From contig JAVIAB010000041.1 in assembly GCA_032433765.1 (NCBI GenBank), forward strand, positions 74,732,232-74,796,231: a stretch of DNA of 64,000 nt. Direction: 5' to 3'. This DNA is from Megaustenia siamemsis. Lineage: Eukaryota > Mollusca > Gastropoda > Stylommatophora > Ariophantidae. Position 1 is the stretch's first letter, and the number at the start of each line of letters is the position of its first letter. This document shows, piece by piece, positions 31,641-52,719 of this stretch. The notes beneath the pieces were generated by a model. The model was given only the letters and a program-made list of their open reading frames with translations. It was not told the origin of the DNA and did not search any database. Position numbers and translations under genes: made by a program.

Positions 31641-31799
31641 CACTAAAAACTGTCTTTATTCAGCGTTCTTACATGTCACACCCGGTAGACCCTAGTAATG
31701 GGATGGAGTAGCATAGATGTTTTTTTTTTAAATCTATCAGCTTTATTATTTAAAGCTATTTTTTCTCTTAATTTCTCCTTGATTTACCGGGTCGCTCAT

Positions 31800-31960: not shown

Positions 31961-32097
31961 TTTACCATTGCACTGCGATTATTTGCCTACTCCCTACTTA
32001 TTTAAATTTACTAATTTAGATGACCCCATATTTGTACGCGTGTAGTGAAACCCGTACACAATTCCTTCTCAACTGTACCCTGACAAAGTTCGAAAAA

Positions 32098-32280
32098 ATG
32101 CAAACTAATTATTGCTTACCTGTACAGTTTGTCAGGTATAAACAAGACATAAATTATAGCTTACCTGTACAGTTTGTCAGGTATAAACAAGACATACATT
32201 ACAGCTTACCTGTACAGTTTGTCAGGTATAAACAAGACATAAATTATAGCTTACCTGTACAGTTTGTCAGGTATAAACAA
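32098..32280. repeat. 45-bp tandem repeat, about 4 copies
   Basis: The unit is CTTACCTGTACAGTTTGTCA followed by GGTATAAACAAGACATAAAT. It runs directly into the 30-bp array. Confidence 0.93.
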
Positions 32281-33352
32281 TGAAACAGAGAAAGTTGATT
32301 GTAACAACAACATGAAACAGAGAAAGTTGATTGTAACAACAAACATGAAACAGAGAAAGTTGATTGTAACAACAAACCTGAAACAGAGAAAGTTCATTGT
32401 AACAACAAACCTGAAACAGAGAAAGTTGATTGTAACAACAAACCTGAAACAGAGAAAGTTGATTGTAACAACAAACATGAAACAGAGAAAGTTGATTGTA
32501 ACAACAAACCTGAAACAGAGAAAGTTCATTGTAACAACAAACCTGAAACAGAGAAAGTTCATTGTAACAACAAACCTGAAACAGAGAAAGTTCATTGTAA
32601 CAACAAACCTGAAACAGAGAAAGTTGATTGTAACAACAAACATGAAACAGAGAAAGTTCATTGTAACAACAAACATGAAACAGAGAAAGTTGATTGTAAC
32701 AACAAACCTGAAACAGAGAAAGTTCATTGTAACAACAAACCTGAAACAGAGAAAGTTCATTGTAACAACAAACCTGAAACAGAGAAAGTTGATTGTAACA
32801 ACAAACATGAAACAGAGAAAGTTCATTGTAACAACAAACATGAAACAGAGAAAGTTCATTGTAACAACAAACCTGAAACAGAGAAAGTTCATTGTAACAA
32901 CAAACCTGAAACAGAGAAAGTTCATTGTAACAACAAACCTGAAACAGAGAAAGTTCATTGTAACAACAAACATGAAACAGAGAAAGTTCATTGTAACAAC
33001 AAACATGAAACAGAGAAAGTTGATTGTAACAACAAACCTGAAACAGAGAAAGTTCATTGTAACAACAAACCTGAAACAGAGAAAGTTCATTGTAACAACA
33101 AACCTGAAACAGAGAAAGTTCATTGTAACAACAAACATGAAACAGAGAAAGTTCATTGTAACAACAAACCTGAAACAGAGAAAGTTCATTGTAATAACAA
33201 ACCTGAAACAGAGAAAGTTCATTGTAACAACAAACATGAAACAGAGAAAGTTCATTGTAACAACAAACATGAAACAGAGAAAGTTCATTGTAACAACAAA
33301 CATGAAACAGAGAAAATTCATTGTAATAACAAACCTGAAACAGATAAAATGA
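32281..33352. repeat. 30-bp tandem array, about 36 copies
   Basis: The unit is AACATGAAACAGAGAAAGTT then GATTGTAACA, with CAT/CCT and GATT/CATT variants in block order. The unit is 10 codons without stops, so long false frames run on both strands. It ends about 50 bases before exon C2. Confidence 0.96.
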
Positions 33353-33406
33353 CTTTAATAGTGTGTCCTCAACAATAACCTATAATTTCCATGTTTCAAT
33401 CTTTAG

Positions 33407-33568
33407 GTAACAGCAGGGACGACGCTTCAAGAGTAGAATTATTTTGTGACCAAGTTTCAAACACAACAATCATGAGCCCTGGTTCCTCCTTGACTGTTGT
33501 GTTTCACTCTGATTCTACATACAACTACAGAGGCTTCAAGTTTGAGTACTCGTCCAAGGCAAAATCAG
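33407..33568 (+). CDS. CUB exon C2
   Basis: A 162-nt exon between TCTTTAG and GTAATG. It encodes DDASRVELFCDQV, then SSLTVVFHSDSTYNYRGFKF and EYSSKAKSG. It is one codon longer than C1, C4 and C5. It completes CUB module 2 (A2-B2-C2), the only internal module here with no nearby anomaly. Confidence 0.95.
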
Positions 33569-34394
33569 GTAATGCAACACTTTAGGATAAACGGTATTGA
33601 TCTCAACCATGAGCTCTGTCGGCAGTGAGTTTAAGAGTTTAAGTGATATTCATGAATATAGCACATGCTTCGTCAGTGCAGTGGCCACGTTGTGTACAAG
33701 GAAAACGTTTCTTTCTGCTTCGAAAGATACGAAAAGTGGCTAATTAAAGTTTGGAATATGTTTCGTGTCCACTTGAATTGTTACCTATAACGTGCTATTC
33801 AAATAATTAACAAACACATTGCAATGTACAATGTATATATTGCAAATAATTTATAAGCAATACATTTTAATCCATGGCGTATATAATTGCAAATAATATG
33901 GGGGAATGCATATGAGACGCTGCCTTGTGGTAGATAAACAACTGACATACAAAGATGTCTCCAAGACATCACTGAGTGAATTTCAAATAGTGAATAATGA
34001 TTTGGAAAATCTGGGAAGATGATCACAGGATGTGTACAAGAGATATCAGAGGTGCCACAGTAAAATTGGAGAATGAAATTAAGTTGAACATGGAAAATAA
34101 AATGGAAAAAGGTGGGCTGTCATTATAGTCCTTTAAAACCAATGGCAATGATTAGTGTAGACATTTTAGACTCTCCGTGTTCGACGATCTTTGCTATTAA
34201 CTATCAGATTACACAGGACCAGCATTTAAGAAGCATGACTCCACGATATGAATTTGTCTTGTTCATTTTTCTGCTTACCTGTATTTCCAATAATTATAAA
34301 ACCAACCACGAGAGAAGCTGCTCAACTACTGAGCGCTTTAGATTTGTTATTGATGATTTCATTAACCTGTTTCCAGACGTTTGTGAAAACATAC
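33569..34394. other. Intron, no recognised feature
   Basis: AT-rich sequence. Frames up to about 120 codons show no known domain. Confidence 0.5.
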
Positions 34395-34665
34395 AAAGTA
34401 AAGTACCCCCGACACGCCAAGTGACGTATAGGGAATATGGTGTTAGTGACCATAAATTTTACAGATCTTCGGCACATGACTTTTAGGGTAATGTGGTCGG
34501 TACTACGCCCGTGCCGCTTCACTTTCCCAGAAAAATATCCAGTAACCATTAAAGACTGGTTGAACCCGGAAGCCATCGGTTGGGATCGAACCCTACCCCT
34601 TGTCCTTTGTAGTCCAGTTCACTAACCACTGAGCTATCGCGGCTCCCTAAGCTATCGCGGCTCCT
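34395..34665 (-). mobile_element. SINE family 1, near full length
   Basis: Read on the - strand it starts GGAGCCGCGATAGCTCAGTG (A-box region) with B box GGGTTCGATCCC, followed by the body (AAAGTGAAGCGGCACGGGCG) and the 3' end with CACTAACACCATATTCCCTA. The head is preceded by a partial duplicate of itself (GGAGCCGCGATAGCTTAG). Confidence 0.8.
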
Positions 34666-34984
34666 GAAAACATACAAGATCGTATATAATTTATTTTACA
34701 ACTGAAGATATAAGCTGATCCACTGTACATAAAACGTAGGCATTCCTTTGATCTATACAAGATGCATGTTATCGACGGCCATCGATGTCAATCATTAATC
34801 AAATGAATTAAGTTGAAATGTTCATTGACAGCACAGACCGCAATGACGATTAGAAAAGTTACAAATATTGAAAGGGCACTCGTGAGGAATGAAGGTTATC
34901 TACAATAATTATTAATCAAATAGTGATAATTGTTCTGGACAAATAATACAAGGATTGGTGCACTCAACGATATAATGATTTTGT

Positions 34985-35240
34985 ATATTTCATTCAAACA
35001 TGACAAATGAGATGTTTGGGGCATATTAAAAGACACAACACCCTACTAAAAGTAATATTGGAAGGGAAAATACAAGGTAAAAGAGGCAGACCAGGACTAA
35101 CTTGGACGAGTGACATAAAAAAAATGGGCAAGTCAGTCTACGACAACCGGCACCATGAAAGCAAGAGACAGAGCGGAATGGCGCTCCATGGTAGCCAACC
35201 TTCAATGCGCAGACGGCCCTTAATGATGATGATCGCTGAT
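34985..35240 (+). pseudogene. LINE C-terminal fragment ending in GATGAT repeats
   Basis: The + strand reads LGHIKRHNTLLKVILEGKIQ, GRPGLTWTSDIKK and, after a frame change, RDRAEWRSMVANLQCAD. It ends in a short TGATGATGAT run. The same tail occurs at 41700-41893 (+), 49050-49270 (-) and 61905-62125 (+). The layout suggests an RTE-like LINE with a microsatellite 3' end. Confidence 0.8.
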
Positions 35241-36179
35241 GAAAGAGTCGAATCCATTGTGAGTCTGTGACTGAGATAAGATACGTGCGTAAAGACGACC
35301 TCAACGGTAGAAATCCCGACGGCCACTAGATGGACTGTTGAAACTGCACGATTATAAAAGAGTGTCAAACGTGTTATTCTAAATGAACAGATATGATTGG
35401 ATAAAGAAAAAAAGAAAACTAAAAATACAGTTTTAAAACAGTCAATGGAAAAAAAAGAAAAATGTAATATAATTCCAAAAAAGATAATATTTTACAATTA
35501 ATGAAACACAACAGCTTTCTATAAGCCACATTTCGTGACAGGAAAATGCAAGGTAACTGATATATAAACAGATACAAATTAAAGTGGACTTACAACTTCC
35601 AGAGATGACCCTAACATCTATACGTGTACCAACAATAAAAGTAACCGTGTAAAGAAACACCATTGCGGGTGGGGTGGGTTTAACCCTTCTATGTAAATGC
35701 GTCCTGCTACTAATGCAAACAAGCAGATATGATAACCTTGAAGGAAAAACTCGGTGCATGTACAACTAGCGAGCTACAGGAACGATCAATGGGAACAAGG
35801 AAAAATGACGATCTTCAAAGACAATATCGGTGCGTGTATAACTAGCGAGCTGCTAGAATCAGTACACACTTTATCATCCTCTAAAACTCTTAAGGCTACT
35901 TTTATGTTAAATGGAAGGTTTGTGATAGCAAGATATAGAATAGCTTGCCAAAGTTAGTGTACAACAATACATGTCAAAGTTTCTAATTAGATATATTTCT
36001 GTTCAAGCAAGTTCCATTAACAGGTACCATCACATAAAACAGTATGTCAAATAATAACATTACTTCACTATATATGTGTATCGTGTCTCTATTATAGCGA
36101 CCACAAATTTAATGAAAGAAACATTAATTAAGAAACACAACGTGTGTTTGATTACAATCTTTGTTGACTACTAAATGTG
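35241..36179. other. Intron, no recognised feature
   Basis: AT-rich. ACTAGCGAGCT lies in two related contexts at about 35764 and 35839 (a diverged direct repeat). No gene is supported. Confidence 0.5.
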
Positions 36180-36189
36180 TTTGGCTGCT

Positions 36190-36300
36190 CAAAACATTTG
36201 ACATTGTAGAAACTATTGTTTGCTGTAGGGTTGACAATGACACCTCTGACTGGTCTGGCATAAGACAGGGAGTTAGACAGGGTACATCTTATCACCTTAT
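36190..36300 (+). pseudogene. LINE reverse transcriptase remnant
   Basis: The + strand reads VETIVCCRVDNDTSDWSGIR, then QGVRQGT. GVRQG is the conserved block before the active site in non-LTR reverse transcriptases. It then runs into a TA microsatellite. Confidence 0.6.
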
Positions 36301-36584
36301 CTATTCATATATATATATATATATCATATTTCTGTTCATGTATATGTGGGAAATATAATGAGTAAAGTCAGAGAAGCAAATAATAAAGAACAGTTTGACG
36401 CTCTCAAACACTACAAGAAATACGACACGCCTGATGATTCTGCATATTACTCACAAGTGGCTTAGAATAAAAAAATGATACCATCAGTTCTATAATATAA
36501 GAGTAAACAAACAACAGTTTTATCTCGATGCAACAAAATCACAATTTCTACAACAGATAAGACACATATAACAACTGAGATATG

Positions 36585-37215
36585 TTTCTTTCTTTCTTCT
36601 TTTCTTTCCTTCCTTATTTGTTTTCGACGTTGAGGAGAGATAATGTGGACGGTTTCTTTCTCTTCTTTTGGCTTCTTCTGCTGCTATACGTCCGAGTGTT
36701 TCTAGTATTCCATCTATCCACCTTTTTCTTGGCTAGCCTCTTGGTCTGGTGTTCTCGTATGGTTTGTTTGGTAACATGTATTAGATTTAGTTCTTTATGT
36801 CTGATCACATTCTCGAAATACTTGGTATGTTGTTGCTGTATGAATGAATAAGCTGACCCCGTTCCCAGTCTTTTTCATAACTCTCCATTTCAAATCGTAT
36901 CAATCTGGTTGTTTCATGTCACGCGTCTGAACACTTCATTTCTGTGGTGTTTATTGTTCTAATAGATTATTGAGTCTATGTCTATGTCTGGCACTGTTAG
37001 CACAACGCCGGGATAAAGATAGTCTTATAAATAGTCGCTTCGCTTCTAACGTCACTTCTTTGTTAGACCTTGGTGGTGAAATCAGTTCAATAACTTGACA
37101 GGCTTTTGTTACATCTTGAGTCTGATTCTGTTGCTTGCATGTGGTTATATGTAATGCTGCTGCCTAAGTATTTCAATTCCTTCTCTTGTTATAATATTGC
37201 AATGTATTGTTCTGT
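36585..37215 (-). pseudogene. LINE C-terminal region, decayed
   Basis: The - strand reads HVTKQTIREHQTKRLAKKKV, then DRWNTRNTRTYSSRR and basic residues. Related decayed sequence is at 49500-49860. Further upstream on the - strand, fragments of the post-RT region are broken by stops. Confidence 0.6.
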
Positions 37216-37510
37216 TGGTGTCTTCTTCTGTCAACGAATGCTAGTGTCGTAGAAGTATATTTAGAATACAATGGACGGAGAAAAGAATAAACGTGTCCAT
37301 GTTGTAAGAACTTACAATTCCAGGAAACATGATAAAAAACATAAAAACAGAATAGGTTATTTCTGCAACAATGCATACGAGATAGCGGCTCATTACAGTG
37401 TGCGTGGTTGTGGTAAATGAACTAGAAGTAGACCTAGAAGAAGGGGGGTGCAAGATATCACAGGTTAGCTGGGATTGATTGCTGCAGCAACGTTCGGAGC
37501 ATAAGAGAAA
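37216..37510. other. Intron, no recognised feature
   Basis: Short unassigned interval before the 60-bp array. Confidence 0.5.
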
Positions 37511-38475
37511 ACAAACAAACTCAGATTAACTGTCACGGGAGCCAAATATCAATGGGTACAAGATGAAAGAACAAACAAACTCAGATTAACTGTCACGGGA
37601 GCCAAATATCAATGGGTACAAGATGAAAGAACAAACAAACTCAGATTAACTGTCACGGGAGCCAAATATCAATGGGTACAAGATGAAAGAACAAACAAAC
37701 TCAGATTAACTGTCACGGGAGCCAAATATCAATGGGTACAAGATGAAAGAACAAACAAACTCAGATTAACTGTCACGGGAGCCAAATATCAATGGGTACA
37801 AGATGAAAGAACAAACAAACTCAGATTAACTGTCACGGGAGCCAAATATCAATGGGTACAAGATGAAAGAACAAACAAACTCAGATTAACTGTCACGGGA
37901 GCCAAATATCAATGGGTACAAGATGAAAGAACAAACAAACTCAGATTAACTGTCACGGGAGCCAAATATCAATGGGTACAAGATGAAAGAACAAACAAAC
38001 TCAGATTAACTGTCACGGGAGCCAAATATCAATGGGTACAAGATGAAAGAACAAACAAACTCAGATTAACTGTCACGGGAGCCAAATATCAATGGGTACA
38101 AGATGAAAGAACAAACAAACTCAGATTAACTGTCACGGGAGCCAAATATCAATGGGTACAAGATGAAAGAACAAACAAACTCAGATTAACTGTCACGGGA
38201 GCCAAATATCAATGGGTACAAGATGAAAGAACAAACAAACTCAGATTAACTGTCACGGGAGCCAAATATCAATGGGTACAAGATGAAAGAACAAACAAAC
38301 TCAGATTAACTGTCACGGGAGCCAAATATCAATGGGTACAAGATGAAAGAACAAACAAACTCAGATTAACTGTCACGGGAGCCAAATATCAATGGGTACA
38401 AGATGAAAGAACAAACAAACTCAGATTAACTGTCACGGGAGCCAAATATCAATGGGTACAAGATGAAAGAACAAA
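37511..38475. repeat. 60-bp tandem array, 16 identical copies
   Basis: The unit is ACAAACAAACTCAGATTAAC, TGTCACGGGAGCCAAATATC, AATGGGTACAAGATGAAAGA. All 16 copies read identically over 960 bases, unlike every other array here. The last partial copy ends exactly where a SINE begins. Confidence 0.98.
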
Positions 38476-38695
38476 GGACAAGAGGTCGGGTTCGATCCTT
38501 AGTGACGGCTTCCAGGTTCACCCAGCCTTTAATGGGTACCGGACTTTTTTATGGGAAAGTGAAGCGGCACGGGCGTAATACCGACCAAATTACCCTAAAA
38601 AACATGTGCCGAAAGTCTATGAAAATTATAGTCACTAACACCATATTCCCTAAACGCCACGTGGCGTGGCGGGGCTCTTTACATTTTTTTTTTAC
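38476..38695 (+). mobile_element. SINE family 1, 5'-truncated
   Basis: It starts at GGACAAGAGGTCGGGTTCGA (B-box part) and continues with the body and 3' end of the family, ending in a T-run. The A-box half is missing, replaced by the 60-bp array. Confidence 0.8.
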
Positions 38696-38772
38696 AAAAT
38701 GAAAGATGATGATGATTAGGCTTATATAGAATGTCAATTATGAAGATGTTTAATCACATAATTATGTTGCAG

Positions 38773-38854
38773 ATTTGTGTCCATATGTCAACTTATTGGC
38801 AAGTGAAACTCCACAGTACATAACTTCACCTGGTTATCCATACAAATATCCAAA
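38773..38854 (+). CDS. CUB exon A3
   Basis: An 82-nt exon between TTATGTTGCAG and GTAAGA. It encodes DLCPYVNLLASETPQYITSP, then GYPYKYP, the start of CUB module 3. Phases match A2 and A4. Confidence 0.93.
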
Positions 38855-38864
38855 GTAAGAACAT

Positions 38865-39232
38865 TACTGAGTTATTAAGTTAATTTGCGGGTCATCATCA
38901 TTGCACTTCGAGCATGTCCATAGGTGCTCAGATCCCCTCCTCATCAACTTTCGCAGTGTCCAGCGACTGACGACTCCAGTTGTGTGTAGGTTGATAAGTC
39001 TTCTTACACGCCCACTAAGTTTCTCGTTTCTGGCTGTGCCCATCTTAACTCCCATCTTCTTCATCCTAAGGAGTGACCTGGATTCATGGTTGTCGAAGTC
39101 ATGTGCTCTTCCCACATCTCGGAGGGTGTTGATGAGGTAGCCCGATCCATTGGTTGACCGGCCTCAACGATAGCGCAGCTTGCCAAAATGTCCGCTCTTT
39201 CATTCCCCCGTACTCTCGTATGTACTGTGACG

Positions 39233-39265
<33 letters not shown>

Positions 39266-39625
39266 GATCAGGACTCAATCAGAGTAGGACGTATATAAAG
39301 GTGATCTTTCTTTTTTTTTTTACTTCTGCAATGACTCTACCCATTGCATGCGTACAGAGCCAACCTTCACGTTTGTTATCATACTCATCGAATCACTCAG
39401 TATGCAGGCATGGGTGTAGTCTTGAGACTCTAACCAGATGAATGCCCTGGTCACTGCCATCACCTCCATCGTTATGCAACTCGTGGTCATAACGTATACA
39501 CCACTGTCTTCCTTGACTCTTCTGCCTGCCGAGCGTGTTGTCAATGTCCATGAACGTTGATGACATATTACAGAAGGGTCTGTATCACAGACAACTATTG
39601 CAGTATGAAGCACTGAGAACAATAT
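38865..39625 (-). pseudogene. LINE RNase H domain and 3' end
   Basis: On the - strand the 39622-39320 frame reads EDSGVYVMTTSCITMEVMAV, then CILSDSMSMITN, matching RNase H metal-site segments. After a (CT)n tract the reading continues in other frames with VRGNERADILASCA, the C-terminal RNase H motif. The tail NEKLSGRVRRLINLH ... HLWTCSKC then follows. The order is that of an RNase H-bearing LINE. Frames are broken, so it is dead. Its tail is the parent type of the 36-bp minisatellite. Confidence 0.85.
39235..39263. repeat. (CT)n microsatellite
   Basis: Lies inside the LINE fragment. The same flank (CAATCAGAGTAGGA) follows a longer (CT)n at 62729, so the CT tract is part of the LINE family. 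Confidence 0.95.
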
Positions 39626-40764
39626 CGATTAACATTTTCTTAATTAAAACTAGGTATTGGCAATGTTGTTAGTGCAGTCATCTGCTCACTACCTGATGCG
39701 GGTCCAAATACCAACATTCTAAAGTCAATTTAATTCTATTGATGGAATCAATTTTAATTCAGTCTGATAATCCCCATATCCGCCCCACAGCCAGTCCCAG
39801 CATTTCTTGAAGTGTAAACAGACTGATTGTTCCTGTAAGCTTTTGATTATAGATAATTCTGCTGTTCCCATTAAATACTCTGGATCGTCCAGATCCATTT
39901 TCCATCTTTAGGCTCCTCAGACTCTCAATATATATACATCATTGTTCCACATATTCTCCTCCTCTTCTCTTAAAGAATGAAGAATAAACTTGGCGATGTC
40001 CCCTGTACAGAGTAAGTCCACATTCAGTGCCAGAGATGCCAGCGAGCTTATCGGATATGTCATTGTCGTGTACACCAGCTGCCCTTTGAGAGCACACCCA
40101 GGTTAACGCTTTCACATTAGAGCCATCGAAGAGCTGCATCCACTCATGCCATAGACACAGTCAATCTTCTGTAGCATACATTGCCAGTCAGTTACCAAGT
40201 CTGTATGATCCACGTTCTGCGTCCAATATTCTGAAACAGTTTTCAAACCCTGTTCGGGTTATTACAATTAATATAGAACTTGCCGAGTAACAGAACAACC
40301 TAGCATTATATTGGCATCATAGTGAATAAAGGTGGTAATTGTTACAGAAAATAATTTGTATCTACCGGTGTCGAAAAGCGAAAGTACCCTTTTCCTTTAG
40401 TTTTTTTTTTTTTTAAATGACCAGTGTGTGCAGCGACTTGTAAGAAGCGCCGATTGTAACCGAAACATAAACGATTCAGTTGAAATACCAGCCGTGTGTA
40501 TAAACACAGATTTTCCAATTAGGCGCCCACAAAACAACATAAAGCATTTTGTTCTGTGGAATACACGTCGATCATGAGAGAAAGTGAACTACCCACTAGA
40601 TATCTGCCGTGTCGCGAATGGCTCCCATATTGAATCGTTGTAACCTAAAAGTTAAAAACAAAAACCTATAAGATATTACATTACCTTTGGTATGAAAACG
40701 ATCCTCATATCACATTATGGGGGCTGACAATAATTGATTGCAAAAGGTACAATCATTTTCGGAA
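39626..40764. other. Intron with a second RNase H-like LINE scrap
   Basis: On the - strand 40139-39939 reads ALTWVCSQRAAGVHDNDISD, then KLAG, weakly like the C-terminal RNase H motif. The rest is unassigned. Confidence 0.45.
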
Positions 40765-40992
40765 CATCTGTACTTCATATTCTCCAACATCTGTACTTCA
40801 TATTCTCCAACATCTGTACTTCATATTCTCCAACATCTGTACTTCATATTCTCCAACATCTGTACTTCATATTCTCCAACATCTGTACTTCATATTCTCC
40901 AACATCTGTACTTCATATTCTCCAACATCTGTACTTCATATTCTCCAACATCTGTACTTCAAATTCTCCAACATCTGTACTTCATATTCTCC
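40765..40992. repeat. 23-bp tandem array, 10 copies
   Basis: The unit is CATCTGTACTTCATATTCTC plus CAA, nearly identical throughout. Confidence 0.97.
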
Positions 40993-41495
40993 CGTGACCC
41001 CAATGCAAGCGTGTTGGGAGGGACGTAGAGGACGGTTGCTCACAGGGTAACATTTAAAACAGCAATAATTCCAAATAAAATATTTTTTTAATAACAGGTT
41101 ATGGGAGCAATAATTAGCTTGTCACAGACGCTGACAAGCCACATATGTAACATTCAAAGGCACTGGTAAATAATGTTACGACACTGCTCTAACGGCGTTC
41201 CATTTTTTACCTGTAAAGTTACATGTTACTTTTAAAACTGCTCTTCCGCATTTTTAGAATATAAGTAATGAAATCATGTTTCATTAGTAAACAAAACAAG
41301 CAAGACATTTATAATTTGTTGCATGTCACATTCACAATTACAAGTTGAAAATTGTAAAATGTATGTTGTAATTTATATTTACACCTTATTACACGTGCAA
41401 CAAGTTTACAATTGAGATCATGGCTTAAGTGTATCTATAATGCCAACCACGCATTTTGTCCAAATCCTAAAGCAATATTTCATCATTTGCTATCT
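40993..41495. other. Intron, no recognised feature
   Basis: AT-rich, unassigned. Confidence 0.5.
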
Positions 41496-42933
41496 GGTAA
41501 CACACTAAGGCAATGTTCTTTCTATTTGAAGTAATGTGGACTACAGGTGGATATGGTGCAGAAACATGGACATTAGACAAGAAAACAGAACAGAGAATTG
41601 AAGCCTTTGAAATGTGGATATATAGAAGAATAGGTACAATTGGATGAAAAGAAAATAAAACAACGATGAAGTCTGAAAACAACTAAAAATGAAAAACAGT
41701 GAAAAATCTTGTAGGGGAAAATACAAGGTAAAAGAGGCAGAGACAGACCAAGTCTAACATGGACAAGTAACATCAACAGATGGACAATTCAGCCTATGAC
41801 AACGTGCACCATCAAAACAAGAGACAGAGCAGAATGGCGCTCCATGGTAGCCAACCTTCTTTGCGGAGATGGCACTCGATGATGATGATGATGAGGTGGA
41901 TATAGTAAGACACTAAACCAATTTTCTTTCTATTTGTAGTATTATGGACTGCAGGTGGGTATAGTAAGACACTAAACCAATTTTCTTTCTATTTGTAGTA
42001 TTGTGGACTGCGGGTGGATATAGTAAGACACTAAACCAATTTTCTTTCTATTTGTAGTATTATGGACTGGTGGTGGGTATAGTAAGACACTAAACCAATT
42101 TTCTTTCTATTTGTAGTTGTGGACTACAAGTGGATATAGTAAGACACTAAACCAATTTTCTTTCTATTTGTAATATTGTGGACTACAAGTGGATATAGTA
42201 AGACACTAAACCAATTTTCTTTCTATTTGTAGTTGTGGACTACAAGTGGATATAGTAAGACACTAAACCAATTTTCTTTCTATTTGTAGTATTATGGACT
42301 GCAGGTGGGTATAGTAAGACACTAACCAATTTTCTTTCTATTTGTAGTATTGTGGACTGCGGGTGGATATAGTAAGACACTAAACCAATTTTCTTTCTAT
42401 TTGTAGTATTATGGACTGCGGGTGGATATAGTAAGACACTAAACCAATTTTCTTTCTATTTGTAGTATTGTGGACTGCGGGTGGATATAGTAAGACACTA
42501 AACCAATTTTCTTTCTATTTGTAGTTGTGGACTACAAGTGGATATAGTAAGACACTAAACCAATTTTCTTTCTATTTGTAATATTGTGGACTACAAGTGG
42601 ATATAGTAAGACACTAAACCAATTTTCTTTCTATTTGTAGTATTATGGACTGCGGGTGGATATAGTAAGACACTAAACCAATTTTCTTTCTATTTGTAGT
42701 ATTGTGGACTGCGGGTGGATATAGTAAGACACTAAACCAATTTTCTTTCTATTTGTAGTTGTGGACTACAAGTGGATATAGTAAGACACTAAACCAATTT
42801 TCTTTCTATTTGTAATATTGTGGACTACAAGTGGATATAGTAAGACACTAAACCAATTTTCTTTCTATTTGTAGTATTGTGGACTGCGGGTGGATATAGT
42901 AAGACACTAAACCAATTTTCTTTCTATTTGTAG
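41496..42933 (+). repeat. Tandem array of copied 3' splice sites and exon B3 starts (59-bp unit)
   Basis: The unit reads CAATTTTCTTTCTATTTGTAG, then TATTGTGGACTGCGGGTGG, then ATATAGTAAGACACTAAAC. The first part is a pyrimidine tract and AG identical to the acceptor of exon B3. The second matches the first 19 bases of that exon (codons for IVDCGW against IVECRW). The third contains GTAAGA, a good donor. I count 17 decoy units before the real acceptor at 42932-42933; 14 keep the AG and three read GTAATATTG instead. Ten units would give a 24-nt microexon and four a 22-nt one. An older diverged unit at 41496-41554 is cut off from the rest by a LINE insertion. Confidence 0.9.
41555..41893 (+). mobile_element. 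5'-truncated RTE-like LINE with target duplication
   Basis: The + strand starts in AETWTLDKKTEQRIEAFEMW, YRRIG, then (frame broken) GKIQGKRGRDRPSLTWTS and RDRAEWRSMVANLLCGDGT. It ends in (GAT)n. The flanks AGGTGGATAT at 41545-41554 and 41894-41903 are a 10-bp direct repeat. That repeat is also part of the array unit, so it could be array sequence rather than a true duplication. Confidence 0.8.
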
Positions 42934-43064
42934 TATTGTGGAATGCAGGTGGGTAATCAAAACAAATGTGTCTTCAAATGTGATTGTGTTGAAATTGATC
43001 GATTTCTTCATGGAGGAGCAGTACATTTCGTCATGCAAATTTGACTACGTGCATTTAATTAATG
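42934..43064 (+). CDS. CUB exon B3
   Basis: A 131-nt exon between TATTTGTAG and GTACAG, the longest B exon. It encodes IVECRWVIKTNVSSNVIVLK, then a Cys in SSCKFDYVHLING. The domain-end motif is HLING where the others have IYDG. Its acceptor is the last of a series of near-identical acceptors, so splice choice here may be unusual. Confidence 0.9.
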
Positions 43065-43477
43065 GTACAGTAATTCAGTATTAATAATGTCAGTACAATT
43101 ATTACATCATCATTGTTATTATATCACGATGGATCGTTTAAAATGTATGCTTGTGCTGAGTCATCGTATGCTTGTGATGAGTCATCATGCTTGTGTTGAG
43201 TTTTCATATGCTGGTGTTGAGTCTTCATATGCTGGTGCTAAATCATGATATGCTTATTTTGAGTCATCATATGCTTGTGTTGAGTCATCATATGCTTGTG
43301 TTGTCATCATGCTTGTGTTGAATCATCATATGCTTGTGTTGAGTCATGATATGCTTGTGTTGAGTCATCATGCTTGTGTTGAGTATTGATATGCTTGTGT
43401 TGAGTCATGATATGCTTGTATTGTGTCATCATATGCTTGTGTTGAGTCATCATATGCTTTTGTTGAGTCAGCATATA

Positions 43478-43899
43478 TAGGGTGTTTATAAAGTCTCACT
43501 ACACTTGGTATCTAGGTCAATTTGAAAAAAAATGTTTATGACGTCATCACAATATATGCTCAATGGTAAGTTCACTTGTTGCGACAGTTTTCTTAATGAC
43601 TTGTCTGGACTTTTAAGGATTCTGTCTTGGATATCTAAACATATTTCATCATTCACAGCAGGCCTACCAGATCGTGGAGCATCTTCCACATTTCCAGTAG
43701 CAATAAACTTATTCAACAAATTTCTAACCGTAATGCGATGAGGAGGTTGTTTATCAGGAAATCTTGCTATAAATCTTTGAACAACTACCCGTGTGTATCG
43801 CACAATTGACAGTGGGAGCACATATTGTGATGACGTCATAAACATTTTTTTTCAAATTGACCTAGATACCAAGTGTAGTGAGACTTTATAAACACCCTG
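43478..43899. mobile_element. Mariner-type short element with long inverted repeats
   Basis: The two ends match as inverted repeats for about 75 bases, beginning AGGGTGTTTATAAAGTCTCA. TA dinucleotides flank both sides (43476-43477 and 43900-43901), as expected for Tc1/mariner insertions. The 422-bp interior carries part of an N-terminal helix-turn-helix domain on the - strand. Confidence 0.9.
43560..43816 (-). pseudogene. Transposase N-terminal HTH remnant inside the short element
   Basis: The - strand reads FIARFPDKQPPHRITVRNLL, then NKFIATGNVEDAPRSGRPAV and KSPDKSLRKLSQQVNLPLS. This pattern (RFP..PPHR.T, DAPRSGRP, SLRKLSQQ) is that of the HTH domain found N-terminal to mariner-like transposases (DUF4817 type). 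No DDE catalytic domain is present, so the element must be mobilised in trans. The frame itself is unbroken. Confidence 0.8.
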
Positions 43900-44835
43900 T
43901 ACTTGTATTGAGACATTTTTTGCATGTATTAAGTCATCATATACTTGTGTTGGGGCATCATATGCTTGCGTTGAGACATTGTATGCTTTGTGTTTGAGTC
44001 ATCATATGCTTGTGTTGAGTCATCATATTTATGTGTTGAGACATCTTATACTTGTGTTGAATCATTATATGCGTGTGTTGAGTCATCACATGCTTGTTTT
44101 GTGTCATCATATGCTTGTGCTGAAACATCATATGCTTGTATTGTGTCATCATATGCTTGTGTTGAGACATCATGTGCGTGTGTTGAGTCATCATATGCTT
44201 GTGTTAAGTTATCATATGCTTGTGTTAAATCATCATATGTTTGTATTGAGTGATGATATGCTTGTGTCATGTCATCATATGCTTGTATTGAGTCATCATA
44301 TGCTTGTGTTGAATCATAATATGCTTATATTGCGTCATTATGCCTGTGTTGAGTCATCACATGCTTGTGTTGTATCCCCATATGTTTGTGTTGAGACCTC
44401 ATATTCTTGTGTTGAGTCACAATATGCTTGTGTTAAGACATCATCTCCTTGTGTTCAGACATCATATTTTTGTGTTGAGACATCATATACTTGTTTTTGA
44501 ATCATCATATGTTTGTATTGAGTAATCATATGCTTGTTTTGAGTCATCATATTTTTTGAGCTGAGACATCATATGCTTGTATTGAAACAACATATGCTTG
44601 TGTTGAAACATCATATGCTTGTATTGAAACATCATATGCTTGTGTTGAGTCGTCATATGTTTGTCTTGAGACATCATATGACTATGTTGAATCATCATAT
44701 GCGTGTGTTAAGTCATCACATGCTTGTTTTGTGTCATCATATGCTTGTGTTGAGTCATCATATGCTTATATTGAGACATCATATGCTTGTGTTGAGTCAT
44801 CATATGCTTATATTGAGACATCATATGCTTGTAGA

Positions 44836-45220
44836 TTGCCGGTTAGATTAGATTGTTAGAAAATAGTCTATGTAGAACGAAAGCTTATTACCAATATCAA
44901 GAAGAACCATCTGTGACATCATGAGAAGGAAATAAGTGGTGCATATTGTAATAATTAGATAAAATGGAAAACTGGAAGATGGGAAGATAAAATATAACAC
45001 CTGATAGTTATTATTTAGTTTGTATTACGTTTACCAACACAATAGTTAGAAACCAACATATGACATTATACACACAGGCTTCATATTGGTTGTTAAATAC
45101 ACAAGTTATTACAGGACAGTATTAATTATGGGATTTATCATCTATTATATCATATGGTATTGTAGAATCAGAATTTACCAGACTTTTACCGTCATAAGTG
45201 CCGTGAAGGAGCCGCTAGAG
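44836..45220. other. Intron, no recognised feature
   Basis: AT-rich, unassigned. Confidence 0.5.
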
Positions 45221-46633
45221 TGTGTTCAACAAGGAAAGGAAGCTGCTGGTGTGTGTTCAACAGGGAAAGGAAGCTGCTGGTGTGTGTTCAACAGGGAAAG
45301 GAAGCTGCTGGTGTGTGTTCAACAGGGAAAGGAAGCTGCTGGTGTGTGTTCAACAGGGAAAGGAAGCTGCTGGTGTGTGTTCAACAGGGAAAGGAAGCTG
45401 CTGGTGTGTGTTCAACAGGGAAAGGAAGCTGCTGGTGTGTGTTCAACAGGGAAAGGAAGCTGCTGGTGTGTGTTCAACAGGGAAAGGAAGCTGCTGGTGT
45501 GTGTTCAACAGGGAAAGGAAGCTGCTGGTGTGTGTTCAACAGGGAAAGGAAATTGCTGGTGTGTGTTCAACAGGAAAGAAAACTGCTGGTGTGTGTTCAA
45601 CAGGGAAAGGAAGCTGCTGGTGTGTGTTCAACAGGGAAAGGAAACTGCTTGTGTGTGTTCAACAGGGAAAGGAAGCTGCTGGTGTGTGTTCAACAGGGAA
45701 AGGAAATTGCTGGTGTGTGTTCAACAGGGAAAGAAAACTGCTGGTGTGTGTTCAACAAGGAAAGGAAGCTGCTGGTGTGTGTTCAACAGGGAAAGGAAGC
45801 TGCTGGTGTGTGTTCAACAGGGAAAGGAAGCTGCTGGTGTGCGTTCAACAGGGAAAGGAAACTGCTTGTGTGTGTTCAACAAGGAAAGGAAGCTGCTGGT
45901 GTGTGTTCAACAAGGAAAGGAAGCTGCTGGTGTGTGTTCAACAGGGAAAGGAAGCTGCTGGTGTGTGTTCAACAGGGAAAGAAAACTGCTGGTGTGTGTT
46001 CAACAAGGAAAGGAAGCTGCTGGTGTGTGTTCAACAGGGAAAGGAAGCTGCTGGTGTGTGTTCAACAGGGAAAGAAAACTGCTGGTGTGTGTTCAACAAG
46101 GAAAGGAAGCTGCTGGTGTGTGTTCAACAAGGAAAGGAAGCTGCTGGTGTGTGTTCAACAGGGAAAGGAAGCTGCTGGTGTGTGTTCAACAGGAAAAGGA
46201 AGCTGCTGGTGTGTGTTCAACAGGGAAAGGAAGCTGCTGGTGTGTGTTCAACAGGGAAAGGAAGCTGCTGGTGTGTGTTCAACAGGGAAAGGAAGCTGCT
46301 GGTGTGTGTTCAACAGGGAAAGGAAGCTGCTGGTGTGTGTTCAACAGGGAAAGGAAGCTGCTGGTGTGTGTTCAACAGGGAAAGGAAGCTGCTGGTGTGT
46401 GTTCAACAGGGAAAGGAAGCTGCTGGTGTGTGTTCAACAGGGAAAGGAAGCTGCTGGTGTGTGTTCAACAGGTAAAGGAAACTGCTGGTGTGTGTTCAAC
46501 AGGGAAAGGAAGCTGCTGGTGTGTGTTCAACAGGGAAAGGAAGCTGCTGGTGTGTGTTCAACAGGGAAAGGAAGCTGCTGGTGTGTGTTCAACAGGGAAA
46601 GGAAGCTGCTGGTGTGTGTTCAACAGGGAAAGG
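45221..46633. repeat. 29-bp tandem array, about 48 copies
   Basis: The unit is GTGTGTTCAACAGGGAAAGG plus AAGCTGCTG. It lacks stops on the + strand, so all three + frames stay open for over 400 codons although the unit is not a multiple of three. These frames are not genes. Confidence 0.96.
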
Positions 46634-46859
46634 AAGTCACTGGTGTTTGATCTACAGAGAACGGGAGTCACTGGTGAAATATCAACAGTAAAAATAATCC
46701 GCGGGTGTAAAAGGTTTGGAAACCAGCTGTCAAAAGTAATTAGAAGACTTTTCATCCGCCAAATTTGCAGGTGTTGTCTGTCCTACAATGTGACGAGGTG
46801 GAGTTGGCAACTCTCAGACCTAAGAAGGTAACTTTTTTAGGTTGCTTAGTTGACAATGT

Positions 46860-46995
46860 ATCGTAATGCATAGTCTCTCGTAGCAAGACGCTGTTTTGAG
46901 CAGTACGAGTTCGATCCTCCTTCGGGCTATTTTTTGTGTGTTTAATTGTTGAATATTTGTGGACTATTTCCCCGAGTGTTGTAACATATTCTTCC
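46860..46995 (+). mobile_element. tRNA-derived SINE, family 2
   Basis: A tRNA-like head has the B box GAGTTCGATCCTCC near 46907. It is followed by a TTTAATTGTTGAATATTTG body and CCGAGTGTTGTAACATA. It shares layout and 3' sequence with 47820-48050. Confidence 0.55.
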
Positions 46996-47217
46996 CATGA
47001 AACGATTCGTTGATAGTGACATCAGTTGCATGTATTTGTGCTTTAAAATTGCTGGGCTAAAAATAATTATAATGGGACAAATACCAAGTTTACTACTCAA
47101 AAATAGTCTGCTCGCTGTTTAATGTTAAAAAAAAAATTGTTGGTATTAAACGTCAAACACAACATTAAAAAAACAACAATAACATGCTTTAACTTATCAT
47201 TATTTTGTTTCCTTAAG

Positions 47218-47375
47218 ATAACAGCATATACTCTTCCAAAAGAAGAGAACTGTGTGGCCAAGATCAAAATGGAACATTCACAAGCACTGGACCAATCATG
47301 ACTGTATCGTTTCATTCCAATGCCATATATAACTACAGAGGTTTCAAATTGAGTACACTTCGCAGGACAAATCAG
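47218..47375 (+). CDS. CUB exon C3, one base short
   Basis: A 158-nt exon between TTCCTTAAG and GTAATG. It encodes RRELCGQDQNGTFTSTG, then MTVSFHSNAIYNYRGFK. After that the frame slips: CAAATTGAGTACACTTCG aligns with the other C exons only if one base is missing near 47349, before EYTSQDKSG. C exons elsewhere are 159 or 162 nt. Read as it stands, the next exon (A4) goes out of frame and a stop appears in B4. The acceptor is AAG rather than CAG or TAG. Confidence 0.85.
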
Positions 47376-47489
47376 GTAATGACAATTTTAGAGACACTGC
47401 TACATAGTTGTAGAAGAGCTGAATAGCCTACTTTTTCATTAAAATAACGTATAATTTGAGAATCGTCGACTTTTACAGTAACGGCTTTA

Positions 47490-48115
47490 GTGAGTTGTCA
47501 TTTGTTCCGAGCGCTGTAAACATACCTCTTCCTCTGAATTGATTCGCTGATTATCGCCCCGGAAGTTTCCCTCTATAATAATATTCATTTATTATTATTT
47601 GTCTCCAGCCTAAACCACTGGAAACTACTATTCGTGCTGTTTCGTCCTAAATGTTTGTCTGCAACGCAAGTATTCAGCCCTACCCTATCCGGGAGATACT
47701 TGTCTTAATAGGAAAAAACAGATACACCCATTTCATCCTTCAGTTGTGATCGCAGCCCTATGCTATAGTCATGAGAACACCTGCGTGAAAGACATCGCCA
47801 TTAATGGCTAATTATTTATTTAGCCGAGTTGGCAGTGTTCTCTAACGTTTGGCTTTACGTGGCAAGGCGTATGCCAAGGAGTACGGTTCGATCCTGCTTA
47901 GGACCATATATTGTTCCTTGTTTGTTTTCAATTGTTAATTATTTGTCAATTTTACCGAGTGCTGTAAACATACCTCTTCCTCTGAATTGATTCTCAGATT
48001 ATCGCCTCGGAAGTTTCCCTCTATAATAATATTCATTTATTATTATTTATCTTTTTTTCCCCCGAGTGCTGTAAACATACCTCTTCCTCTGAATTGATTT
48101 AGTTGACACCTTCTG
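47490..48115 (+). mobile_element. SINE family 2 copies and 3' fragments
   Basis: A tRNA-like head lies at 47820-47912 (GCCGAGTTGGCAGTGTTCTC, B box CGGTTCGATCCTG). The 3' segment GCTGTAAACATACCTCTTCC occurs three times (near 47512, 47972 and 48067), so the family is represented by one longer copy and two tails. Confidence 0.55.
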
Positions 48116-48635
48116 GAACTGAATGTCATGGTCTGGATTACCAGATATAACTTCTGTACAAATGTCTTTGTTTTGTTTGGGGTTTCTAAGTGAGACAATT
48201 ACTGCATTGCAACGTGTGTCACGCCCACATTTAACACAAAATACCTATAATGTACTTGCACATAACATTAGCCATTATTTGTTTCATTGTGTGTCTAGCT
48301 TGAGCTTTAGTGAGATATCAAAGTGTACATCGCTACATCTATTCGTTTGCAAGACTGTCTGCTTGAGAAAGCAAATGAAGTAAGGCAAGCTTCCAGATAC
48401 CGCAATGTTAGACAGAGCTGATATTCCCAGGACAGACACTGTATCGATGCACTCAGACAACCGCTTAGCGTGCCATTCATATATATATAATATAGACCGA
48501 ATACCAAACTACTGAATGAATAATAAAGGTATTGTCTTAGATAGATTATTGTCTTACAAAAGAAACATAATAAAGATATTGTCTTAGATTATTGTCTTAC
48601 AAACGAAACATAATAAATGTTTACCTGTCCCGCAG
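48116..48635. other. Intron before exon A4
   Basis: No gene recognised. A direct repeat of TATTGTCTTAGATTATTGTC-like sequence lies at 48530-48610. Confidence 0.5.
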
Positions 48636-48717
48636 CTCAGTGTACAGATGTTCACCTTTCGGCCACTACAACTCCAAAGTACATTACATCGCTTGGCTAC
48701 CCCGACGATTACCCAAG
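48636..48717 (+). CDS. CUB exon A4
   Basis: An 82-nt exon between CCCGCAG and GTACGA. It encodes AQCTDVHLSATTTPKYITSL, then GYPDDYP. The alternative AG four bases on would give a frame without the CUB motifs. Phases are as in A2 and A3. Confidence 0.92.
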
Positions 48718-48779
48718 GTACGAACATTCGCTGTATCGTCACTAGTGAAACAATAAACATTTCCAAGTATTCCACCTGG

Positions 48780-49038
48780 CCAGGAGATCACTGACTTAGA
48801 CAAACACTAAACGCGGGTAGAAACACGTAGAGGCTGTATCTCGACTTGTCGTCGCGACTATTGCCAGGAGATCACTGAGTTAGACAAACACTAAACGCGG
48901 GGTAGAAACACGTAGAGGCTGTATCTCGACTTGTCGTCGCGACTATTGCCAGGAGATCACTGAGTTAGACAAACACTAAACGCGGGGTAGAAACACGTAG
49001 AGGCTGTATCTCGACTTGTCGTCGCGACTATTGCCAGG
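48780..49038. repeat. 84-85-bp tandem repeat, 3 copies
   Basis: The unit begins CCAGGAGATCACTGAGTTAG and ends TCGTCGCGACTATTG. The second and third copies carry one extra G. It starts 60 bases after exon A4. Confidence 0.95.
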
Positions 49039-49049
49039 CCCAGGTTCTA

Positions 49050-49270
49050 GACTCAATAATAAATAAACAAATAGCCATTCATCATGACATGTGCCGTCTC
49101 CGCATCGCAAGTTGACTACCATGGAGCGCCATTCCGCTCTGTCTCTTGCTTTGATAGTGCAGGCTGTCATAGGTTGGCTTGTCCGTCTTTTGATGGTATT
49201 ATCCATGTTAGTCCTGGTCTGTCATTGCCTCTCTTACCATGTATTTTCCCTTCTAAGATTACATTTAGTA
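49050..49270 (-). pseudogene. RTE-like LINE C-terminal fragment
   Basis: The - strand carries the tail motif RDRAEWRSMVVNLRCGDGT seen in the other RTE-like fragments, plus the start of the GRGRP-like region, broken. Confidence 0.75.
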
Positions 49271-49389
49271 GACTGTTGTTTCTTTTAACATACCCTCCCT
49301 ACTAAAAAAAATTAAATAAAATAACCACAACAGAAAAGAAATGCATTAGACTCATGAAGGGAAATTGCCTGATGAATTAGAACCGGTAT

Positions 49390-49500
49390 GAAAAACTGAT
49401 AAATAAAAACCTATCTTTAGAGTTATTTCCACCACAGAAAACGTAAGGAAACTACAGACACAATGGTTTTCTCACGTGATGAGACAAAGCCATCAAAACA
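49390..49500 (+). pseudogene. Small LINE C-terminal scrap
   Basis: The + strand reads TAENVRKLQTQWFSHVMRQS, the WF.H.MR motif of LINE ORF2 C-termini. Confidence 0.6.
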
Positions 49501-50995
49501 CAACAAAACTGCTTCTTCTTCCTCTTCTTTCCTTACTCTTTTGCCTTTCAACGTCGAGAGGAAATATAGTTTATGGTCTTTTGTTCTTGTTTGTCTCTTC
49601 TGCTCTTATGTTTCATAGTGTTTCTAATATTCTGACAAATCATCTTTTTCGTGGTCGGGCCTTGGGTATGGTGTTCTCGCAACGCTTATCATGGCTTGTT
49701 GTATTATGTTTTGATCTTTTACCCTTATCAAACCATTTTATCTGTTGTTTCTTTATATATTTTATGGCGGCGGTTATTCCTAGCAATGTTCTCAGTTCTT
49801 CATTTCCTATCTTATCTCTCAGACAGTTTTCTTTCATTCGTCTAACACATTTCATCTCAGTGGTGGTTATTTATTTTTATTGTTCTTGCATCTAGGGTCG
49901 AGAACTGGCATTGGTATCACAACGTTGTGATGAAGATTGTATTGTAGAGTACTCGTTTTGCCTCTAGAGTTATTTCCTTGTTGGACAATAGTGGTGGTTG
50001 CTGTCCAATGATTGGACAAGCTTTGTTGCATCTTGAGTCTATTTCTGATGTTTGTGAATTGTCGTTTGTCACTAGATTTACTAGGTATTTAAATTCCGCT
50101 ACCTGTTTTAGGTTCCTGATGTCTATAGTTATATTGATGTTCTGTTTCTGTTTTTCCGATAGTCTGTTTTGTTGATGTTGATTTAATGTTATATTTTGTG
50201 CCTGTGTTGTTGAGTCTATTCAAGTGTTAGTGTGGGTCTTCTATTTTTCCGTGTAGTAGTGCCTGATCGTTGGCAAATAAAAGCTCAATGATCTCCTCTG
50301 TCTCTGATTGGTTGGCTAACTTGCATAAGATATATAGTTCATGTAATGAGCAATATGGGTGGGTAGAATAGCATGCATCTCTGTCTTACTCCTGATCTAA
50401 CCTCGAAGAGGTCTGTGTATCCTGCTGCTGTTCTGACCCTGCAGCGTCTGTTGATGTAGAGACTTTTAATTAGGTTGGTTAGATGTTGGCTTACTTAGTA
50501 TGTTGTTAGTATCTCCTATATTTGTTCTCGGTTTTCTCCGTCGAATGCTTTATCTACGTCTATGCAAGCTATTTATACATTTTGATTGTGTTTTGTCGTC
50601 TTTTCTGCCAGCTGATTTACGGTGAATGGAATAATCATTACATCCTTTTTTTCGGAACTCCATTTGAAAATCGCTTAAATGTAATTCTATTTTTGGTCTC
50701 AGTCTTTGTTCAATAATTTTAGAGTATAACTATCCCCACATGGCTGAGACGCGATATTCCTCTATATTGATTGCAGTCTCTCCTGCTACCTTTTTGTTCC
50801 ACATTGGTACAATGATTGCCTGTTGCCAGTCTTCTGGGGCTTTTTGTTGGTGCCATGCTGCATTGAATATTCTGTGCAGTCATGTAACTTCTGCTTCTCC
50901 TGTTGCTGCTATTATTTCCGTTGTTAAGTTATCTATCCCAGGTGCTTTTTTCGTGATGCACATTTGATTACTTCTTCGATTAATAACAGAACACA
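49500..50995 (-). pseudogene. LINE reverse transcriptase, long decayed copy
   Basis: Read on the - strand from 50995: KKAPGIDNLTTEIIAATGEA, then motifs equivalent to NYRGISLL and the fingers/palm region, broken by frameshifts, down to IKWFDKGKRSKHN and IPKARPRKR near 49640. The APGIDN block opens the reverse transcriptase domain of many non-LTR elements. About 1.5 kb of ORF2 is present but no frame is intact. Confidence 0.8.
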
Positions 50996-51062
50996 AAGAG
51001 CCTTCAATAAACGTTGCGAGAACATTAGGCCGTAAGACAGCCCACAAAAAAAGATGAACCAC

Positions 51063-51362
51063 TTGAATATTAGAAACACTATAAAATATTAGAAACACTA
51101 TAAAATATTAGAAACACTATAAAATATTAGAAACACTATAAAATATTAGAAACACTATAAAATATTAGAAACACTATAAAATATTAGAAACACTATAAAA
51201 TATTAGAAACACTATAAAATATTAGAAACACTATAAAATATTAGAAACACTATAAAATATTACAAACACTATAAAATATTAGAAACACTATAAAATATTA
51301 GAAACACTATAAAATATTAGAAACACTATAAAATATTAGAAACACTATAAAATATTAGAAAA
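51063..51362. repeat. 19-bp tandem array, about 16 copies
   Basis: The unit is AAAATATTAGAAACACTAT, almost identical in all copies (one reads TTACAAA). Confidence 0.97.
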
Positions 51363-51454
51363 CTTAACAGAATCTGAAGACAACAAAAAACAGAATGCCT
51401 CAAACTGTTTCCCCTCGACTTGAAAAGGCAAATAAGGAAGAGCAGAAGAAGATG

Positions 51455-51625
51455 AAAGAGTTAGAGACGATTTTCTACTTTCTGAGATGGAAATAATATT
51501 TTTGCCCAGGGAACTCTCAACATTCTTCTGAGAAATCCCATCTTAGTGTTCTGCAGTCTTTTCATTAGTTTGTCTACTGTCCATGATTCACTTTCATCGG
51601 TCACAATTGCTCTATATATAGGAAA
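51455..51625 (-). pseudogene. LINE ORF2 fragment
   Basis: The - strand reads DESESWTVDKLMKRLQNTKM, then GFLRRMLRVPWAK, the segment after the reverse transcriptase domain (compare 55440-55520). Confidence 0.75.
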
Positions 51626-52148
51626 TGTTTTTAATTAAAACAAAATAATGTCTCCGATACACTGACGCTATGTGAGTGTTCAACAACATGCTACACTACT
51701 TGGCATTATCATCAGGAGGTGACGACAGTAGTGCACTTACTCTCTGTCATTATATTTTACCAATCAGTGAGCCAAACACATGTTTATCTATCTGGGTGGA
51801 CATAGAGTCCTAGGTCGCGATTGAGCCAACGTCGATTTTATCGACAAGCGAGTTCGTTATTGCTACATTCTCATTTTCTAACACAATAATGGCATTAAAA
51901 AAAATTGTTAAAGAAAGAGAATGAGTCAAAAAGCAACAATATTAAATGCTATCTACATTATTATCATTTATTTCATGACCATCAACAATCTCGTTAAGAA
52001 CATAATCAATCAAATGTTATAAATGTATACTGTATTCCTCCATAATTTATCTCATTTACAACTAAAATCTGAAAAGATGCCACAATTTAAAACATCGACT
52101 CAGAATAGGCTTCTCAGTAATAATCTAAAGAGATGTGTCTCTTTTCAG
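51626..52148. other. Intron before exon B4
   Basis: Nothing recognised. Confidence 0.5.
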
Positions 52149-52276
52149 TTATATGGACTGTCAGTGGCATATCACAACTTATTTGTCATCAAATGTGATT
52201 GTACTATATATGGAGGATTTCTACCTGCAAGGATATTCATCAGATTGCACATCTGACTATGTGACCATTTATGATG
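52149..52276 (+). CDS. CUB exon B4
   Basis: A 128-nt exon between TCTTTTCAG and GTACTG. It encodes YMDCQWHITTYLSSNVIVLY, then a Cys in SSDCTSDYVTIYDG. The spacing and phases match B5, which is the same length. Confidence 0.94.
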
Positions 52277-52719
52277 GTACTGTGATTAAACGTTATTATT
52301 GTTGTTATGTATTTGTTGTATTTGCCTAAGCATGGTACATTTTATGTAATAATTATATTTCTTTCAAAGCAGCCTATGATTATAACCATAGTCAATCTTG
52401 CATGTAAAATGTCAACAGTTTAAATAATAAAACGATTACAAAGTTGGTCGAAGAGAAAAAATCGAAATTGTGCTAGTATTCACCCGTAGTGTAAGACACA
52501 AGAAACTGTAGGAAATATTGTTTTTTTTTCTGTTTTAAATTTCACTTTTGATTTTCACAAATGATGTATTAGCTGCTCTTGAATTTGTCAAATGTATTTT
52601 CTGCAAAACTAAATTGTAATATATTAACTTACCTTCGTGGTGGCTTCTTTTGTTTTAACATGGTAAACATAGATTTTATTATTTCGTTTACTCGTATTCT
52701 GTGGGGTAGTTGCCATTAG
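52277..52719. other. Intron, no recognised feature
   Basis: AT-rich, unassigned. Confidence 0.5.

Follow-up and report, generated by a model that had tools for sequence, protein, structure and literature searches.

Why should an exon be preceded by many copies of its own leading edge, most of them retaining the signals that mark a 3′ splice site? The question is raised by a predicted gene for a protein with several CUB domains, in which the second of the three exons of the third domain (D3 t2) lies directly downstream of a tandem array of 17 units, each of them copying the acceptor edge of that exon. The window analyzed, by which we mean the whole stretch of DNA under study, comprises 64,000 nucleotides (nt) of contig JAVIAB010000041.1, and its 14 CUB exons (t1, t2, and t3 being the first, second, and third exon of a domain) were located from homology and splice consensus rather than from RNA. 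We put a probability of roughly 80% on the array being a neutral minisatellite seeded at an exon edge, of the type known from amphioxus as a mirage, with productive splicing at the acceptor closest to the exon. The first-pass annotation of this DNA had offered three explanations, namely a field of splice decoys, a source of variable microexons, and a neutral minisatellite that started at an exon edge. The last fits best because minisatellites make up 47% of the window, the array has been copied in blocks, and all variable columns of the in-frame exon piece alter an amino acid. The array probably has no effect on fitness, or a mildly harmful one with low-level mis-splicing.

Each unit joins the 3′ end of the intron to the first ∼19 bases of D3 t2, and the final intron copy ends in the real acceptor at 42933/42934. 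The core of the pyrimidine tract, CTTTCTATTTG, occurs 19 times: in one outlying copy, in the 17 array units, and at the real exon. The first-pass annotation had described 17 decoys of about 59 base pairs (bp), each with a tract, an AG, some 19 exon bases, and then GTAAGA, and our parse of the units agrees, with GTAAGA directly after 17/17 exon pieces. The parse also upholds its counts of 14 decoys that keep AG and of ten units that would, on paper, form complete 24-nt, frame-preserving microexons; the remaining three acceptors read TAA (exon starts 42174, 42582, and 42816). The exon piece is 24 nt long in 13 of the 17 units and 22 nt in four, and the units fall into ten with AG and a 24-nt piece, four with AG and a 22-nt piece, and three with a 24-nt piece and no AG. 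A functional microexon cassette would have both splice sites and a frame-preserving length in all units; here only 10/17 do. The ten in-frame peptides read IVDCGWI (five units), IMDCRWV (two), IMDCGWI (two), and IMDWWWV (one), and the extra Cys and Trp once attributed to all ten are borne out for Trp and, IMDWWWV having no Cys, for Cys in nine. A TAC codon replaces TGC in seven of the 17 copies (three in frame, giving Tyr, and four in the shifted 22-nt pieces), and TGG replaces it in one. The 35-nt intron part, GTAAGACACTAAACCAATTTTCTTTCTATTTGTAG, has 17 matches, 14 of them exact and three with a single mismatch. Since 100 shuffles gave 0, a chance resemblance of the units is ruled out; an 18th copy carries a 1-nt deletion. 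From each GT to the next AG in the array there are 34−35 nt. No yUnAy branch-site motif occurs in the 45 bases upstream of the real acceptor or in the unit, CTAAA coming close, and the unit has 0 exact matches in IMG/VR.

The history of the array can be read in part from its left end. Its start had been set at 41496, which is the edge of a diverged outlying copy (copy 1, ∼41497−41554); what stands of that placement is the array proper, which follows a fragment of a long interspersed nuclear element (LINE; 41555−41893). This fragment is 81−83% identical over 153−186 bp to three other fragments within the window, and array sequence, AGGTGGATAT, flanks it on both sides, as for a target-site duplication. 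Because array sequence was duplicated as the target, copy 1 and the array were joined before the LINE inserted, and their former continuity makes a pure assembly artefact less likely. The unit types run in the order abcd'eda-bfbd'efbd'eb, where a prime denotes AA in place of AG at the end of a unit's own intron part and a dash denotes a 34-nt intron part. Tandem Repeats Finder also reports the array as a 234-bp higher-order period with 94% match, and the two observations together indicate growth in multi-unit blocks. AG is lost only after units of type d, and it is the 2-nt deletion that makes a unit type d; each change probably arose once or a few times and was then copied. Since both spread by copying, the 14 units that keep AG are not 14 independent tests of constraint. 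The interior intron parts are near-identical, with copy 1 diverged and the real exon different, which is the homogenization that characterizes a mirage. The Asp codon is GAC in the array units, as in the four other t2 exons, and GAA in the real D3 t2 exon. Array and exon thus seem to be diverging without visible exchange; the exon probably changed after the array had formed, and the two have probably not been equalized since.

A neutral origin would then run as follows. A piece of ∼59 bp, spanning the 3′ end of the intron and the first ∼19 bases of the CUB exon, was duplicated in tandem, as the make-up of the units shows, and the block structure points to later expansion by unequal exchange or slippage, several units at once. 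Productive mRNA would come from the acceptor beside the full-length exon with its own donor, because an intact exon remains at the 3′ end of the array, and the copies would be mostly silent because their 22−24-nt exons are separated by introns of only 34−35 nt. The early stops met when AG copies are read through, and the lack of microexon-like inserts at 288 junctions of CUB relatives, both described below, also speak for this reading.

The same gene holds a counterpart on the donor side. A second array, of 48-bp period, copies the last exon bases and the donor of D5 t1, the first exon of the fifth CUB domain. It has 17 TATCC cores, the first of which belongs to the exon itself, leaving 16 copies. 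GTAAGA follows 7/16 copies and AG precedes 14/16, and an AG, a 9-nt piece, and a GT stand together in 11. This array is less homogeneous, with 85% matches compared with 93% in the acceptor-edge array. Donor-edge and acceptor-edge copying thus coexist in one gene.

Tandem arrays of this kind, the amphioxus mirages, were reportedly first described by Canestro et al. in 2002. In the portion of PMC3087553 consulted, mirages in Adh3 and in the globin genes BflGb6 and BflGb9 are tandem, minisatellite-like copies over an exon/intron boundary, at the 3′ or the 5′ splice edge. BflGb6 has six and three units of 150−160 bp in two haplotypes, BflGb9 has its array at the 3′ boundary of exon 2, and Adh3 has units of 10−72 bp. 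Many units hold AG/GT, and the interior is homogenized with the edge copies excluded. The same portion states that Adh3 data and reverse transcription PCR of the globins suggest undisturbed regular splicing, that somatic instability is reported for Adh3, and that a model of intron gain has been proposed. The claim of the first-pass annotation that no such family had been described fails because these mirages share the anatomy seen here, as far as that portion of the text describes it (PMC3087553). Both of our arrays span a predicted authentic exon/intron boundary, called from homology and splice consensus (the D3 t2 acceptor and the D5 t1 donor). Both share the structural features of a mirage: their units keep splice signals at the frequencies given above, and the interior is homogenized, with diverged terminal copies, as seen in the acceptor-edge array. 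They differ from the amphioxus arrays described in that portion in having 17 units plus one (∼59 bp) and 16 copies (48 bp), compared with the fewer, longer units of BflGb6, and in that 10/17 units would form complete in-frame microexons, known here from the DNA sequence alone. The papers listed by a literature search include no array called a mirage outside amphioxus, and no cephalochordate is named among 31 rows, the best 120 of 1,599, or the best 120 of 147 protein matches, where only part of the matches carry names. The host is likely to be an invertebrate of some other group.

Other systems resemble the present one less closely. In human CBS, a 31-bp variable number tandem repeat is said to lie over a 5′ splice edge, and the variant 844ins68 is said to duplicate a 3′ splice edge once while preserving normal mRNA. 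The part of PMC4974935 consulted describes intron gain in potato RdRp by tandem duplication over an intron/exon boundary with branch site, tract, AG, and exon start, together with a cryptic GTAAG donor; there one duplication yielded a new intron that is spliced, whereas here there are many copies with only 34−35 nt from GT to the next AG. For human internal tandem repeats at exon−intron boundaries, the corresponding part of PMC2812944 states that minisatellite expansion can create alternative introns; those repeats lie among recent segmental duplicates and have transcript support, averaging four units of 30 bp, in contrast to the 17 and 16 copies here.

Does the position of two arrays at exon edges call for a special process? 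Minisatellites, defined as blocks with a period of at least 10 and at least three copies, occupy 47.4% of the window in 20 blocks. Nineteen of these blocks (48779−49038 was left out) were compared with 28 exon edges; three shuffles against half of these edges (14) served as the control, which therefore runs low. The acceptor-edge unit scores 140 against the D3 t2 acceptor edge (three shuffled units, 15−19), and the second array scores 79 against the D5 t1 donor edge (shuffles, 18−24). An exon-edge origin was rejected for the other 17 blocks, none of which scores comparably. Their best scores are 15−25, with one AT-rich block at 46 beside its own exon (shuffles, 26−41), and several blocks slightly exceed their controls (25 versus 16−20, 20 versus 14−16, and the AT-rich block). 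Random placement of 21 arrays, each shrunk to one unit, over the 28 edges predicts 0.46−0.60 edge arrays where two are observed, the probability of at least two being 0.075−0.12. Edge arrays are thus not far above chance, and no special drive toward exon edges is required, with room for what may be a mild enrichment. Purifying selection presumably removes arrays inside exons, and edge-spanning arrays could survive because one intact exon remains.

The slight excess of edge arrays over expectation is one of several points that weigh against a neutral array. A small splice-site model was derived from the 14 acceptors and 14 donors of the gene itself, its acceptor part omitting the real D3 t2 site. 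In it, the ten AG copies of 24 nt score 6.8, equal to the real acceptor, the four 22-nt copies score 10.3, and the outlying copy scores 9.2. The copied donors score 7.8, within the leave-one-out range of the real donors (4.2−11.0). As splice sites, then, the copies are not disabled. What surrounds them is unfavorable, a 22−24-nt exon with the next acceptor 34−35 nt away in a gene whose introns as placed (n = 13) measure 1,260−17,062 nt. The exon half of the unit is also more variable than the intron half, where the splice signals lie (41905−42933), at 7/24 versus 2/35, 8/24 versus 2/35, and, for substitutions alone, 6/24 versus 1/35 positions (Fisher P = 0.024, 0.011, and 0.015), a difference that neutrality does not predict, in a test that is post hoc, counts few events, and has its independence broken by block copying. 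Finally, in both arrays the copy at the 5′ end is missing its partner site, copy 1 reading GTAACA and the first 48-bp copy having no AG ahead of it, and the later copies nearly all have that site (GTAAGA in 18/18, AG in 14/15).

Of the other explanations, the one that survives best treats the array as a field of splice decoys that tunes dosage. Splicing to a copied acceptor would lead to an in-frame stop and degradation of the transcript, and copy number would set the output. The 14 of 17 units with an acceptor scoring at least as high as the real one are what such a field would need, and read-through of any of the 15 AG copies (14 in the array and the outlying one) into the real exon meets a stop 8−23 codons past the junction. 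Nothing in the data is a sign that leakage, if any, is regulated, and we regard a dosage-tuning role as unlikely.

Microexon insertion, in which the units would add eight-residue, NIVDCGWI-like pieces to the CUB domain, strikes us as distinctly less probable again. Were one copy spliced through its own donor to the real exon, the insertion would be in frame and free of stops for 10 of the 14 array units that carry AG, and the second array can be read in the same way, with an AG, a 9-nt piece, and a GT in 11/16 copies and a piece length that, like 24 nt, is a multiple of three. Yet four of the 14 units would break the frame, 3/17 have lost AG, and one of the ten in-frame insertions would require a 35-nt intron, far from the range in the host gene. 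The extra Cys in nine of the ten peptides and the extra Trp in all ten would stand beside the CxW of the domain itself, and the acceptor-like sites of the second array are weak (−1.0 to 3.6 versus 1.3−11.1 for real acceptors). A pattern search of CUB relatives found 288 junctions in 113 of 134 proteins, many of which are gene predictions and none of which is the host gene. The first CxW spacing is 8 in 274 junctions, 9 in 11, 10 in two, and 4 in one, and a second CxW at +8, by which an included microexon would be recognized, occurs in 0/288 of these relative junctions; two at +18 are unrelated. At most, the survey shows a CUB family without such inserts, and this option of the first-pass annotation has gained no positive evidence. 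We give equally little credence to the wider proposal that exon-edge arrays are a copy-number-variable source of microexons, in which units with both sites around a multiple of three would be favored and use of a wrong acceptor would cost a tolerable insertion, not an early stop; it rests on two arrays, each with a 5′-most copy without its partner site, and two cases are too few for a test. Least probable of all is an assembly artefact, whether in the array itself or in its copy number, since, although long arrays are often mis-sized and two CUB exons one base off frame could be consensus errors, the LINE fragment between copy 1 and the rest, with its duplicated target sequence, implies more than one copy beforehand, and the units carry ordered variants.

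The host gene and the features discussed are collected in Table 1. Every CUB domain is encoded by three exons, t1, t2, and t3, with intron phases common to all domains, and D3 t1 is of the same exon type as D2 t1 and D4 t1. The PF00431 profile scores 72.3 bits for D2, 88.1 for D4, and 36.8 for D3 t1 and t2 together (E = 5.4e-09), the cut-off being the gathering score of 21.4. The best match of D4 among solved structures is cubilin (3kq4). Among the best 120 of 147 matches, the closest proteins are multi-CUB proteins from JGI that carry the label cubilin, of which the best three have 670−882 amino acids and 37−41% identity, and the named relatives of a longer CUB query are headed, after the JGI proteins, by Haliotis. 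The one-base frame offsets in 47218−47375 and 55870−55950 are either consensus errors or real damage.

Table 1. Positions of the two exon-edge arrays, their host gene, and adjoining features in the window
Feature	Positions	Strand	Remarks
Host gene, part	5330..62464	+	14 exons; five CUB domains of three exons each (D1 t1 not found)
D3 t1, upstream CUB exon	38773..38854	+	82 nt; ends ..TATCCAAA/GTAAGA; from translation and boundaries
Outlying diverged copy 1	41497..41554	+	GTAACA..., tract, AAG acceptor, exon-start copy
LINE 3′ fragment	41555..41893	+	339 bp, ending (GAT)n; splits array from copy 1; AGGTGGATAT on each side; read off sequence
Acceptor-edge array	41894..42933	+	17 units of 59 bp (variants 57−58 bp); exon-start copies of 22 or 24 nt, each between two copies of GTAAGACACTAAACCAATTTTCTTTCTATTTGTAG
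D3 t2, real CUB exon	42934..43064	+	131 nt; donor ATTAATG/GTACAG; PF00431 with t1
D3 t3, third exon of D3 CUB domain	47218..47375	+	Off frame by one base in assembly
D5 t1, CUB exon	55870..55950	+	Donor edge copied by second array; off frame by one base in assembly
Second exon-edge array	55943..56744	+	48-bp period; copies last exon bases and donor of D5 t1 (TATCCAGG/GTAAGAG)

Further repeats lie in and around the gene. A 12.9-kb minisatellite of ∼404 copies of a 32-bp unit (9121−22058) fills most of one CUB-gene intron; with 19 blocks scored at a lenient cut-off, it has 403 acceptor-like sites, which makes acceptor-like repeats alone common here, and only one donor-like site, and it was rejected as a decoy field. 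At 37510−38475, 298 bp upstream of D3 t1, a 60-bp unit is repeated 16 times and is probably very recent because its copies match at 100%. A short element bounded by long inverted ends (agggtgtttataaagtctcac...; 43478−43899) lies between two 21-bp minisatellite blocks of one unit, by eye as if inserted. Two further minisatellites, of 31 bp (45206−46661; 593, 494, and 418 amino acids) and 36 bp (6372−7706; 562, 532, 497, 457, and 452 amino acids), are open in several frames, giving mechanically long reading frames without gene evidence. An intact 600-amino-acid open reading frame for a hAT transposase, with a Spin-doc zinc finger and hAT dimerization region, occupies 2896−4698; its nearest protein is 97% identical and the next 64%, with copies from the termite Cryptotermes at 59−65% (best 120 of 1,599 matches).

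New here are the number of copies, the joint presence of both array types in a single gene, and probably also the host. With its long, clean series of near-identical 3′ splice sites before one real exon, and with a donor-side counterpart in the same gene, the acceptor-edge array offers a natural experiment: how does the spliceosome choose one site among many equals, and do exon-edge minisatellites lead to new introns? Should the host lie outside the cephalochordates, the finding suggests that mirages are not confined to amphioxus and occur in any genome rich in minisatellites.
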